Assembly (NCBI RefSeq): GCF_000194135.1
Contig: NC_015318.1
Coordinates: 1,006,501 to 1,070,500, forward strand
Direction of reading: 5' to 3'
DNA length: 64,000 nucleotides
From: Hippea maritima DSM 10411
GTDB lineage: Bacteria > Campylobacterota_A > Desulfurellia > Desulfurellales > Hippeaceae
The notes beneath the pieces are model-generated. The model made no database searches. It had not been told where the DNA came from and saw only the letters and a program-made list of their open reading frames with translations. The position numbers and the translations under genes are program-made. Positions 54,720-59,935 of the stretch are shown piece by piece. How positions within the stretch are numbered: the stretch's first letter is position 1; every line of letters begins with the position of its first letter.

Positions 54720-55658
54720 TTAAGGTTCTATCGCCTTAATGAGTTCAACAATAAATTCATTGTAAGGTGCAGCAAGACCTTTTTTCTTGGCAAGCTCAAC
54801 AACTACCCCATTTAAAGAATCAATTTCTGTCTTTTGAGAGTTCTCTATATCCTGCAACATAGATGAACGATGGGAATAGGTAGAAGGTACTAACTTTGAA
54901 TAGAAAACATCTTTATATTCATTGGCATTCTTGAAAAATGTTTCATACCCATAGGCCCTCATTACGTCGAATATCTCATTTATAATCCTATCCATAATCT
55001 TTCTTGTTTGGGATTTTTCAGCCAATTTGCCGTATTCAACTCTCAAGATAGCGCCCAATGGATTCAATGCACAGTTGTAAAGCAACTTAGCCCATAGGTG
55101 TTTATCTACATCTTCTGAAACTAAAGCATCAAAACCACCATTATTTAAAGCATCAACAACCTCTTGCGTTTGACCTGATAACTCCTTTCTAAAAATATTA
55201 CCCAGAACCATCTTATCCGCATGGACTGTAATCTCAACCTCATTCGGTGCTTTTCTGTAAAAACCTGTAATTATACGAGCCGAGAAAACACTTTCTTTAT
55301 CAAAGCATCTTAGAAACTTCTCAGCATTACCCCATCCATTCTGAACAACAACTAAGTTAACCCCACCAAGTTTATCTTTAAAGTCACATAGCTGTCTGGC
55401 TATATCCTCATTGGCATATGTTTTGGTAGTTATCAAAACCCAATCAAACTTGTCCCTAAGATTTTCAAAACTATCAATTACATCATACTGACCGTATTTA
55501 AAAGTAAAATCTCCAAAGATTCCATCCACTTTAAAGTAATTTGTTAGAGAATTAAAACTCCTCCTTGTGGAAAACAGGCATACCTCACATCCTGCTTTCA
55601 AAAGAAAGGCAGAAAGCCCTAAACCTACACCACCACTACCAATAACCAAAAACCTCAT
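54720..55658 (-). CDS. panE: 2-dehydropantoate 2-reductase
   Basis: NADPH-dependent reduction of ketopantoate to pantoate, 312 residues. Rossmann motif RFLVIGSGGVGLGLSAFLLK, then TKTYANEDIARQL, VVVQNGWGNAEKFL and KLLYNCALNPLGAILRVEYG (with KxxxNxxxN, the catalytic Lys and substrate Asn region). SSMLQDIENSQKTEID closes it. It completes pantoate synthesis begun by panB, and its start overlaps the DUF4387 gene by four bases. Confidence 0.92.
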   Translation of the reverse strand: MRFLVIGSGGVGLGLSAFLLKAGCEVCLFSTRRSFNSLTNYFKVDGIFGDFTFKYGQYDVIDSFENLRDKFDWVLITTKTYANEDIARQLCDFKDKLGGVNLVVVQNGWGNAEKFLRCFDKESVFSARIITGFYRKAPNEVEITVHADKMVLGNIFRKELSGQTQEVVDALNNGGFDALVSEDVDKHLWAKLLYNCALNPLGAILRVEYGKLAEKSQTRKIMDRIINEIFDVMRAYGYETFFKNANEYKDVFYSKLVPSTYSHRSSMLQDIENSQKTEIDSLNGVVVELAKKKGLAAPYNEFIVELIKAIEP

Positions 55659-55945
55659 ATCTCTACATCCAGAAGCGGAATATAAAAATTAGCGCCCAAA
55701 CAATCCGTATCGGACAAAGAACCTGCTGATGCATCTCTTAAGAACGACACCTTAAGCGTGTTAATGCCATCGCACTCAAAATACATCAGGTCTTCCCTTT
55801 TGTAAAGCTTTTTAAAAAAATCCCGATTCAGCCTAAGCTTTGCCCTTTCATAAAGTTCTTCACTCTTAAACACAATATCTATCGTTATATGCCACACACC
55901 TGCATTCTTGCTCCTTAAGACCTTAACAGCTTCTTTCAGCCTCAA
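55655..55945 (-). CDS. DUF4387-family protein
   Basis: Small cytoplasmic protein, 96 residues, not known in function. Features match DUF4387: VLRSKNAGVWHITIDIVF near the N-terminus, and GSLSDTDCLGANFYIPLLDVEI at the C-terminus. DUF4387 proteins usually lie next to a DUF1446/AtuA gene, as here, and are thought to act with it. Overlaps both neighbours by four bases. Confidence 0.85.
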   Translation of the reverse strand: MRLKEAVKVLRSKNAGVWHITIDIVFKSEELYERAKLRLNRDFFKKLYKREDLMYFECDGINTLKVSFLRDASAGSLSDTDCLGANFYIPLLDVEI

Positions 55946-57276
55946 AACTCTATCTCCTCTATGTAAAATTTATCCTCGATAGCCTCATCCTCTGCTATAT
56001 GATACACACTAAACTCATAAACACCACCCATATCCACCTCAGCCGGCGAATATGGAAAAGCCACATTAGCACCTGTTGCTATCCTACCCTTATAATCGTA
56101 ATGCTGCAGGTGAGCCTTAACAACCGAACAAATCCTGTGGGCAAACTGCTGTTCTTCGGCTACAACATCCACAATCAAACCTATCTCATAAACATTGCTT
56201 TTAAACTCAAGCCCGCCTAAAACACCGTTTCTGCCGTATTGTCTAAAAGTCAGGCTAAACCCACTGCCAAACTCCCTTGTTGCTCTACTCCTAACATCAT
56301 CAAGTATATCATCAAGTTGAGCTATCATATCGGGGTTTCTTATACCCATTATCGCGATTGTTCTATAACCGGAAAACTTAGCACCCTCAAGTTTGAAGCT
56401 TTTTTTTGCCCTATCCTTCCATCTTGCCCCATAAACCTTAACCGTTTTCTCATCATACTGCTCATAGGAAGCATTATCCAGAAACAGCGTCCCATCCGGC
56501 TCCTCTATAACATAAGGATCCGTATTCTCATAAAGCGAATGAGCCAAAGCCGACTCCGGTGTGCAAGTCCTTAAAGGGTTGGGAGGTTTTAGATAAAACG
56601 CATCCTCATCAATAAAGCCCAACAGCGCATCGGATGGGCTTGCAGGTTTTGCGCACAAAGCACCGCATTCGATGATCTTGGACATATGCCAAACCAAAGC
56701 AGGATCATATCCAACAAGAAGAGGATATGCTGCATAGATAGAAGCATCGGTCGCCCTGCCTGCAACAATCAGATCCGCGCCGTTTTTTAGCGCTTCGATA
56801 AACTTAGAAACGCCCATCTGTGCAACGATATGGGAAGAGGAAAGCAGATCCTCCTCTGTAAGTGGTGGGTTTCCTTCATAACTTTTAATCTTGCCTTTTC
56901 TTAGAAGGGAAATCACATACTCCTTTTCAAGCTCCGAATGGATTACAGCAACCCTGAAGTGCAGTTTGTTGTCTTTTGCTATATCCTCCACTATCTCCAT
57001 AAACCTTCCAAGATGGACATCAGCGCCTGCATAACCAGCAGAGCCAATGATAAACGGAATCTTTCTCCTTAAGGCTTCAATCAAAGGATGCTCTAAATCG
57101 TTTCGCGTTGCCTCATAGTTTGCCTTCATGCTTCCAGAGCCCAAAAAGAAAGGGCCTGAGTCGATAGAACCAGCATCAACACCAATATAATCGACACCCT
57201 CAGTTATAGCCCTATCAAACGAATCCCTGTTATACCCGTAACCCAGCTGACCCATTAGCGAGAGTGCCTTTATCAT
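55942..57276 (-). CDS. DUF1446 / AtuA-like protein
   Basis: A 444-residue member of the DUF1446 family that includes AtuA of acyclic terpene degradation; the chemistry is unknown. Motifs: YIGVDAGSIDSGPFFLGSG at the start, FIIGSAGYAGADVHLGRF, IVAGRATDASIYAAYPL and GIRNPDMIAQL, all family-typical. It lies between panD and panE, with panD overlapping its start by one base, and DUF4387 follows. No atu pathway genes occur nearby, so a terpene role is doubtful here. Confidence 0.88.
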   Translation of the reverse strand: MIKALSLMGQLGYGYNRDSFDRAITEGVDYIGVDAGSIDSGPFFLGSGSMKANYEATRNDLEHPLIEALRRKIPFIIGSAGYAGADVHLGRFMEIVEDIAKDNKLHFRVAVIHSELEKEYVISLLRKGKIKSYEGNPPLTEEDLLSSSHIVAQMGVSKFIEALKNGADLIVAGRATDASIYAAYPLLVGYDPALVWHMSKIIECGALCAKPASPSDALLGFIDEDAFYLKPPNPLRTCTPESALAHSLYENTDPYVIEEPDGTLFLDNASYEQYDEKTVKVYGARWKDRAKKSFKLEGAKFSGYRTIAIMGIRNPDMIAQLDDILDDVRSRATREFGSGFSLTFRQYGRNGVLGGLEFKSNVYEIGLIVDVVAEEQQFAHRICSVVKAHLQHYDYKGRIATGANVAFPYSPAEVDMGGVYEFSVYHIAEDEAIEDKFYIEEIEF

Positions 57277-57641
57277 TACATACCCCTATGTTGCTCTATT
57301 ATCTTATTATTATCGTCGACTATAACAACATTAGGTTGATAACCTTCAAGTTTTTCCTCCTCCATCATGCCAAATGCAGCTATGATCACCTTATCACCCA
57401 CAGACACCTTCCTTGCAGCTGCACCGTTTAAACATATCACGCCACTTCCACGTTTTCCCTTTATAGTATAGGTTTGAAAACGTTCCCCATTGTCTATATT
57501 CCATATGTGAACAAGCTCGAACTCCCTCATGTTGGCAGCTTCCATCAACTCCTCATCGATCGTTATGCTGCCAACATAGTTCAGGTCAGCCTCTGTTACA
57601 GTAGCCCTGTGGATCTTACCGATCAACACTTCCCTTAACAT
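57276..57641 (-). CDS. panD: Aspartate 1-decarboxylase
   Basis: Pyruvoyl enzyme making beta-alanine for pantothenate; 121 residues. The self-cleavage site Gly24-Ser25 is in [13 protein letters not shown], preceded by [31 protein letters not shown] fits the C-terminus. It needs autoprocessing; no PanZ-like maturation factor is in the window. Confidence 0.96.
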
Positions 57642-57666: not shown

Positions 57667-58509
57667 TCAAAACCACATATTATCGATAAGCCTTGTTGAG
57701 CCCAAAAAGACAGCCAAAGAAACAAGTGTATCACCCTCTTTGACCTGCTTTAGCTGCTCAAGAGTGCTCAAGCTATTTATGTCTATATAATCTATTTTTG
57801 CAAGTGGATAGCCCTCTATAACCTTCTTCATCTCTTCCTTAATCACATCTGCATCCCTTTGGCCAGTCTCTATAAGCTCTTTAGCCTTCATAAGCGCTTT
57901 ATATAAGCATACAGCCTGCTCTCTTTCCTTTTGATTTAGGTATTTATTGCGCGAACTTAACGCAAGCCCATCGCTTTCCCTGACAATAGGCATGCCGATT
58001 ATCTCTATATCCATATTCAAATCTTTAACCATACGCTTTATAACTATTAGCTGCTGAGCATCCTTTTTGCCAAAATAAGCCCTGTGGGGTTTTGCTATGT
58101 TGAACAGCTTTGCAACAACGGTAGTAACCCCTCTAAAATGTGTAGGCCTGCTTTTGCCTTCTAAAACCTTCGTTAGCTTATCAACCTCAACATAGGTCTG
58201 AAATCCATCCGGATACATATCCTCAACAGATGGATAGAAAACAAAATCAACCCCTTCTTTATTCAATAAAGACTCATCCCTTTCTATATCCCTCGGGTAT
58301 TTATCCAAATCCTCGTTTGGTGCAAACTGGAGCGGATTTACAAATATACTCACAAACACAACATCGTTGTCCTGTTTTGCCTGCCTTACCAAAGACAGAT
58401 GACCCTCATGCAGATAACCCATAGTAGGAACAAAACCTATCCTTTTGCCCCACTCCCTGTATTTATTGGCGATCGCCTGCATCTCAGAAGCAGAATAAAC
58501 TATCCTCAT
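57667..58509 (-). CDS. panC: Pantothenate synthetase
   Basis: ATP-dependent ligation of pantoate and beta-alanine, about 280 residues from the ATG at 58509 (a GTG at 58521 would add four residues). Contains [20 protein letters not shown] (HIGH-like HEGH), [36 protein letters not shown] and [16 protein letters not shown] (the KMSKS-like SSRN region). Length is normal. Confidence 0.96.
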
Positions 58510-58517
58510 ATTCCACC

Positions 58518-59312
58518 TCACAGATATGAATGCTCATCCGTTGGAAACTCACCAGCCTTAACCTCTTTTATGTATTGTTTTACACCGTCAAGCGCATCTT
58601 TTTTCAGATGTGCGTATCTTTTTACAAACTTCGGTTTAAAATCATCAAATAGACCCAGCATATCATGAAAAACAAGCACCTGACCGTCGGTGTGAACACC
58701 AGCACCTATGCCAATAGTAGGAACATTTACAGACTCGGTAATCTCTTTTGCAAGCTGCTTTGGAACAGATTCAAGCACTATCGAAAATACACCAGCCTCC
58801 TGCAAAAACTTTGCATCCTCTTTAATTTTGGTGGCTTCAGCCTCATCCTTGCCCCTGGCTTTATATGATCCAAATATATTTATAGACTGAGGTGTCAGTC
58901 CAAGATGGCCCATAACCGGGATTCCCGCTGCCACTATACTGCTTATGGTAGGCACAAACTCCCTTCCACCTTCAAGTTTTACCGCATCGCAGCCAGTTTC
59001 TTTCAATATTCTGCCAGCATTCCTTATGGCTTCAACATAATCTGCTTGATAGCTCATAAACGGCATATCAACAACGATTAACGCATTCTTTGCACCCTGG
59101 CGCACCATCTTTGCATGATAGATCACCTCATCAACCGTTACAGGTATGGTTGAGCTTTTACCCTGCATAACCATAGCCAAAGAATCACCAACCAATATAA
59201 TATCGATGCCTGCCTCATCCGCTATCCTTGCCGATGTATAATCGTATGCCGTTATCATGCTGATCTTTTCTTTGTCTTTCATATCCTTGATTTTAGGAAC
59301 AGTAATAGCCAT
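58518..59312 (-). CDS. panB: 3-methyl-2-oxobutanoate hydroxymethyltransferase
   Basis: First step of pantothenate synthesis, transferring a hydroxymethyl group from methylene-THF to ketoisovalerate; 264 residues. Motifs: [40 protein letters not shown] and [13 protein letters not shown]-type [26 protein letters not shown] precedes the ATG. Its leader holds a terminator hairpin and a pan-motif-like hairpin, so panB expression is probably attenuated. Confidence 0.96.
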
Positions 59313-59333
59313 AAAACCTCCCTTTTAAGAAAT

Positions 59334-59375
59334 AAAAAAAGCCTGAAAATGCACCCTTGAGGTACATCTCCAGGC
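59334..59375 (-). terminator. Terminator hairpin in the panB leader
   Basis: On the minus strand: stem GCCTG/CAGGC, an internal GA/TT loop, then eight paired bases GATGTACC with GGTGCATT and a small loop, followed by seven T. It ends 21 bases before the panB ATG. It may end the folK transcript, act as an attenuator of panB, or both. Confidence 0.85.
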
Positions 59376-59395
59376 GATTTTGTTTGTGTTATAGT

Positions 59396-59426
59396 GGCTC
59401 AAAGCCCCAAACAGGGGTCTTCTGCC
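59396..59426 (-). ncRNA. Candidate pan RNA motif (cis-regulatory leader of panB)
   Basis: Minus-strand hairpin with two bulged adenines: GGC/GCC pair, an A opposite GA, then GAAG/CTTT, a bulged A, then CCCC/GGGG closing a TGTTT loop. The pan motif is known upstream of pan genes as a stem with two conserved bulged adenines. Identification is by fold only; the consensus was not aligned. It sits 20 bases before the terminator hairpin. Confidence 0.6.
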
Positions 59427-59452
59427 TATTAACAGCAAATAAAATACTCCTT

Positions 59453-59935
59453 TTAGCAAGTCTTGAGGCTCTGTATGCCTTCAAGCTTGCTTTTAAGTTC
59501 TTCTAAACTTAAGCCGTTCAACTTAAGCTCTGCCCCCACATCCAACAGAGGGACAACAACAAAGAGCCTCTCAGCTGCCCACCTATGAGGAAGCCAGAGA
59601 TTTTTCGTTCTTAGAATTATATTTTGATAAGCAATAATGTCAATGTCTACCGTGCGCGGCCCCCACTTAAATTTCTTATTTCTACCTAATTTTCTTTCTA
59701 TTTGTTTAGCAAACCTAAGTAACTCATAAGGTTTTAAATTTGACTTAACCCTAAGCGCAAGATTGCAAAAATTCTTCTGTTTTTTATATCCCCACGGCTC
59801 ACTCTCATAGATCTTCGAAGACGTCACAACTATTAATCGCCTCTTTAGATAAGAAACCGCCTTTTTTAGATTGGTTTTTCTGTTACCTACATTACTACCA
59901 ACAGAAAGGTATACCCATCGATTAAAGGGCCGCAC
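59453..59935 (-). CDS. folK: 2-amino-4-hydroxy-6-hydroxymethyldihydropteridine pyrophosphokinase
   Basis: HPPK of folate synthesis, 160 residues. Motifs: [40 protein letters not shown] and [17 protein letters not shown] (the signature with two Mg-binding Asp of D-x-D), then [19 protein letters not shown]. Monofunctional. It overlaps dapL by 14 bases. The pan leader follows 27 bases after its stop. Confidence 0.93.

Follow-up and report, generated by a model that had tools for sequence, protein, structure and literature searches.

Hairpins of the pan motif, which were reportedly described in 2010, occur in Chloroflexi, Firmicutes, and deltaproteobacteria. The Rfam consensus of these RNAs (RF01749), CuG.CCUgG[A]UCc..gGA.CcGGG[A]CaG (bulged A in square brackets), has a single bulged A on each strand, the two being five pairs apart, and ends in AaGG. 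Most pan RNAs are tandem and located upstream of pan genes, and a dimeric protein has been suggested to be involved (Weinberg et al. 2010, PMC2864571). In the literature searched, no partner or ligand was reported for pan RNAs. Leader-peptide attenuators of the trp and thr type consist of a short ORF with a ribosome site, a hairpin, and then a terminator, while PyrR-type protein-binding leaders consist of a hairpin element, an intrinsic terminator, and then a biosynthetic operon.

The panB leader of Hippea maritima resembles each of these systems in layout and is probably a divergent tandem pan RNA that attenuates panBCD, with two hairpins, a 28-nt linker between them, and a terminator. The window, meaning the whole 64,000-nucleotide stretch of DNA that was analyzed, contains the following features at the folK-panB junction.

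59453..59935, minus strand: folK, the upstream gene, whose 3' end overlaps hairpin 1 (NCBIfam TIGR01498, 135.9 bits)
59616..59643, minus strand: candidate sigma-70 promoter TTGACA-16-TATAAT within folK, 5' of both hairpins (12/12 consensus match)
59455..59491, minus strand: hairpin 1, with pan geometry, AGCAAG.CUUGA[A]GGC..GCC.UCAAG[A]CUUGCU, in which the bulges are A59480 and A59461 (descriptor and fold)
59427..59454, minus strand: linker of 28 nt, 3' of hairpin 1, containing the ribosome-site-like AAAAGGAG (read from the sequence)
59325..59438, minus strand: possible leader ORF of 37 codons, starting at UUG 59438, spanning hairpin 2 and the terminator, with its stop at 59327-59325
59396..59426, minus strand: hairpin 2, with pan geometry, GGC.AGAAG[A]CCCC..GGGG.CUUUG[A]GCC, in which the bulges are A59418 and A59399
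59334..59375, minus strand: intrinsic terminator, a 16-pair stem (59341-59375) and seven U (59334-59340)
58518..59312, minus strand: panB (TIGR00222, 349.6 bits), with its ATG at 59312
57667..58521, minus strand: panC (TIGR00018, 366 bits)
57276..57641, minus strand: panD (TIGR00223, 177.7 bits)

On the minus strand, hairpin 1 is followed by the 28-nt linker, hairpin 2, 20 nt, the terminator, 21 nt, and the panB ATG; panBCD lie downstream of the hairpin pair (NCBIfam), with panE farther along. The stem GGC-A-GAAG-A-CCCC/GGGG-CTTT-GA-GCC of the original prediction is present at 59396-59426 of the minus strand and proved to be real and conserved with compensatory changes. The terminator that it had described was recovered as a 16-pair stem with seven T, and the gaps of 20 nt from the hairpin and 21 nt to the panB ATG agreed. 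The prediction had described one hairpin only; another of the same kind lies upstream at 59455-59491, overlapping the end of folK. The 140-nt leader folded with an energy of -50.1 kcal/mol (z = -5.0), and none of 200 shuffles was equally stable. The interval between panD and panE (55655-57276, minus strand) contains two ORFs (444 and 96 aa) that NCBIfam does not match; the larger looks AtuA-like.

In both hairpins, each strand contributes one of the two bulged A residues, at a distance of five positions, which is the geometry of RF01749. The original prediction had placed two bulged A on one strand of hairpin 2; the better reading puts one on each strand, five positions from the other. The fifth position of hairpin 2 departs from the pan plan in being an A-G or A-A mismatch (A-G in H. 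maritima). The same position is a true A-U pair in leaders L008 (AAAAG/CUUUU) and L100 (AAGAG/CUUUU), which supports the one-bulge-per-strand register. A descriptor of this geometry, requiring at least seven G-C pairs in the window (both strands) and at least six in panB loci, returned exactly two sites in the window, namely hairpins 1 and 2, and no sites in 40 random sequences of the window's length and nearest-neighbor make-up, searched on one strand each. When 80 named panB loci from many phyla were searched, four leaders fit the descriptor, all of them deltaproteobacterial or Chloroflexi according to their record titles.

To assess conservation, we compared panB leaders from relatives and built a model of hairpin 2 (R1). 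Hairpin 2 preceded panB in all of the genomes of the order that were searched (19/19), whereas R1 gave just one marginal match in six other genomes of the class. Both bulged A of hairpin 2 were invariant in 17 aligned distinct sequences, so the retention of these positions in relatives' panB leaders, named as a test in the original prediction, was borne out. In this alignment, 94.7% of cells were paired, four pairs had changed on both sides, and the covariation score was 0.328 (0.189 for shuffled alignments). For hairpin 1, half of the pairs (7/14) had changed on both sides among eight Hippea-clade leaders, and all four bulged A of the two hairpins were invariant in these leaders. The tandem arrangement was seen in the window and in the eight aligned Hippea-clade leaders and was indistinct in genera g2-g4, where the hairpin 1 site held a plain stem that was not recognizable as pan; f2 had a reduced stem there. 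Hairpin 1 lies within folK in most relatives, and it is retained in L011, where folK terminates immediately ahead of it, and in L006, where the folK stop falls in the hairpin loop.

An R1 match in genome G218 (35.8 bits) lay inside a sigma-factor-like gene and was discarded as chance, and no panB lay near any of the further weak R1 matches inspected beyond the order. Leader L018, from a genome of the same class and another family (G021), contains a hairpin of pan geometry, TGC.ATCCC[A]TCTC.gaa.GAGA.GGGAT[A]GCA, located in folK, 153-182 nt upstream of panB. The single-hairpin model R3 described below gave no match to this hairpin, which may be due to chance or may be a sign that the element predates the order.

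Rfam scans of the window and leaders turned up no pan: the Rfam pan model, proposed as a check in the original prediction, had no match in H. maritima even at E<=10 and none in the relatives at E<=2. The core GGAUCC..GGACC of known pan RNAs is also absent from the H. maritima panB leader. Because of these two results, we regard the element as a divergent variant and not as a standard pan member. Even in a phylum with recognized pan RNAs, most of the pan leaders scored below the Rfam cut-off. Rfam matches to patAB, Thr_leader, and trpB were weak, fell far under their cut-offs, and covered the terminator region; they were rejected.

We built R3 from a training set of 16 pan hairpins belonging to other phyla, with loops padded with N to equal length; four of the 16 were second hairpins of pan leaders that had been picked after hairpin 2 was seen, and two of these four (L076 and L087) have the same A-purine mismatch as hairpin 2. 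In the 64-kb window, hairpin 2 was the top R3 site, with 21.5 bits (E 0.003), followed by a site of 13.2 bits; hairpin 1 scored just 9.5 bits. With this model, the scores of pan-type sites among the 80 panB loci were about 18-34 bits. Hairpin 2 was the best site in each of the 15 leaders of family f1, and the f2 leaders were not found.

The leader thus shares with RF01749 the two invariant opposite-strand bulged A five positions apart, the tandem arrangement, and the position upstream of panBCD; hairpin 1 is likewise followed by a purine AaGG tail, and a terminator follows, as in most of the pan leaders examined. It differs from pan RNAs in the missing Rfam match and core, in the A-G or A-A mismatch within the five-pair segment of hairpin 2, in its occurrence in the order Desulfurellales, and in the location of hairpin 1 in the end of folK. 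The reading as a pan attenuator of pantothenate synthesis accordingly stands as to geometry, tandem copies, downstream panBCD, and a read-through terminator, but not as to the family model or the sequence core. The comparison widens the range of the pan architecture to include the Desulfurellales, which the Rfam model misses, and separates the features that are conserved (two opposite bulged A five apart, tandem arrangement, terminator) from a sequence core that is not.

Second hairpins resembling hairpin 2 of Hippea were also observed in four pan leaders of another phylum (L076, L087, L096, and L033), where AGGAG[A]CC..GG.CUCUR[A], or a version with CGAGG/CCUCA, lies downstream of the first hairpin and departs from the known pan sequence.

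Since the 21 nt between the T-run and panB are too few to accommodate a promoter, any transcript of panB has to pass through the terminator. This distance bears on a simpler account, in which an ordinary terminator serves just to end transcription of folK, and the hairpins arose by chance and have no role. Terminators are common after genes, and hairpin 1 is coding sequence in most relatives, but the covariation with invariant bulges, the absence of sites in the random-window control, and the persistence of hairpin 1 where folK ends before it all argue against this account, which we consider highly improbable. Terminators were present in the leaders of relatives (those of L014 and L016 were judged by eye). 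A strict terminator search was positive for 15 of the 22 pan leaders from outside Hippea, not all of which are independent, compared with 2 of 76 panB leaders without pan. Given this enrichment, pan RNAs in general look like attenuators, although the association is not proof.

The original prediction had found no convincing promoter between folK and the hairpin and had invoked read-through from folK. The 12/12 sigma-70 match lies inside folK itself (59643-59616, minus strand), and a match at the same place was found in f2, L100, and 8/9 Hippea-clade leaders. Conservation of this promoter may be due to coding, because its -35 box is made in part by conserved FolK codons. Judging from these motifs, the panB transcript likely starts at the sigma-70 match inside folK or at the folK operon promoter.

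For a divergent tandem pan RNA, regulation would proceed through a partner that binds both hairpins and signals the state of pantothenate or CoA. By analogy with the proposal for pan, this partner would most likely be a dimeric protein, and its binding would tip the balance between termination and read-through into panBCD. In folds halted before the 3' arm of the terminator, the 5' arm did not pair consistently with any other segment. As no conserved antiterminator was found, contact with RNA polymerase and control of leader translation are the candidate routes by which binding could be linked to termination. The leader differs in this respect from PyrR sites, in that no antiterminator competing with the hairpins was found; a protein partner, as in the PyrR-type leaders, is only suspected. 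The bulged A are the bases to mutate in a search for the factor controlling synthesis of vitamin B5.

A conserved, structured leader in a vitamin pathway with a terminator close by would also suit a metabolite riboswitch, in which the hairpins, singly or together, would form an aptamer for a compound of the pantothenate pathway and act directly on the terminator. The hairpins are, however, small and simple, without a junction or pseudoknot, and no alternative pairing with the terminator was found; moreover, a simple tandem structure has been taken as a hint of protein binding (PMC2864571). A riboswitch is therefore quite unlikely in our estimation.

The possible leader ORF suggests a further route. 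AGGAG, together with a UUG whose frame continues through hairpin 2, was found in all 18 leaders of the order that were examined, with indels that preserve the frame, and the ORF was open through the terminator in 6/8 Hippea leaders (1.3 expected). These observations, together with the lack of antiterminator pairing as another route, favor leader-peptide attenuation, in which translation of the ORF from UUG 59438 would cross hairpin 2 and the terminator, so that ribosome progress blocks termination, stalling or poor initiation permits it, and the hairpins act mainly via the ribosome. Such an ORF is nonetheless expected by chance in about 6 to 23% of cases per clade, and L100 retains hairpin 2 but loses the frame. 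The pairs also survive amino-acid changes (Gly to Glu and Ser to Asn), and the ORF has no run of regulatory codons, in which it differs, as in the missing antiterminator and the frame lost in one relative, from the trp and thr attenuators. Among other pan leaders, 6/20 had an ORF open through the terminator (4.3 expected); with no enrichment beyond Hippea, we dropped this ORF as a general pan feature. We accordingly judge leader-peptide attenuation to be unlikely, if less so than a riboswitch.

The leader ORF is possibly a local addition in the Hippea lineage, and possibly, though unproven, a coupling device. In Hippea, the putative ribosome site of this ORF lies between the two pan hairpins, and a pan-binding factor might switch its translation, with passage of the ribosome blocking termination. 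We put forward this translation-coupled version of the pan attenuator only tentatively and consider it rather unlikely.

The position of pan-type hairpins relative to panB varied among the loci compared. In L116, L127, L158, L176, and L182, the distance from these hairpins to panB, downstream of them, is about 1 kb or more. L158, a Firmicute MAG, shares the upstream folK with Hippea and has the order folK, pan, and pan-operon genes, with a dehydrogenase-like ORF between the hairpins and panB.
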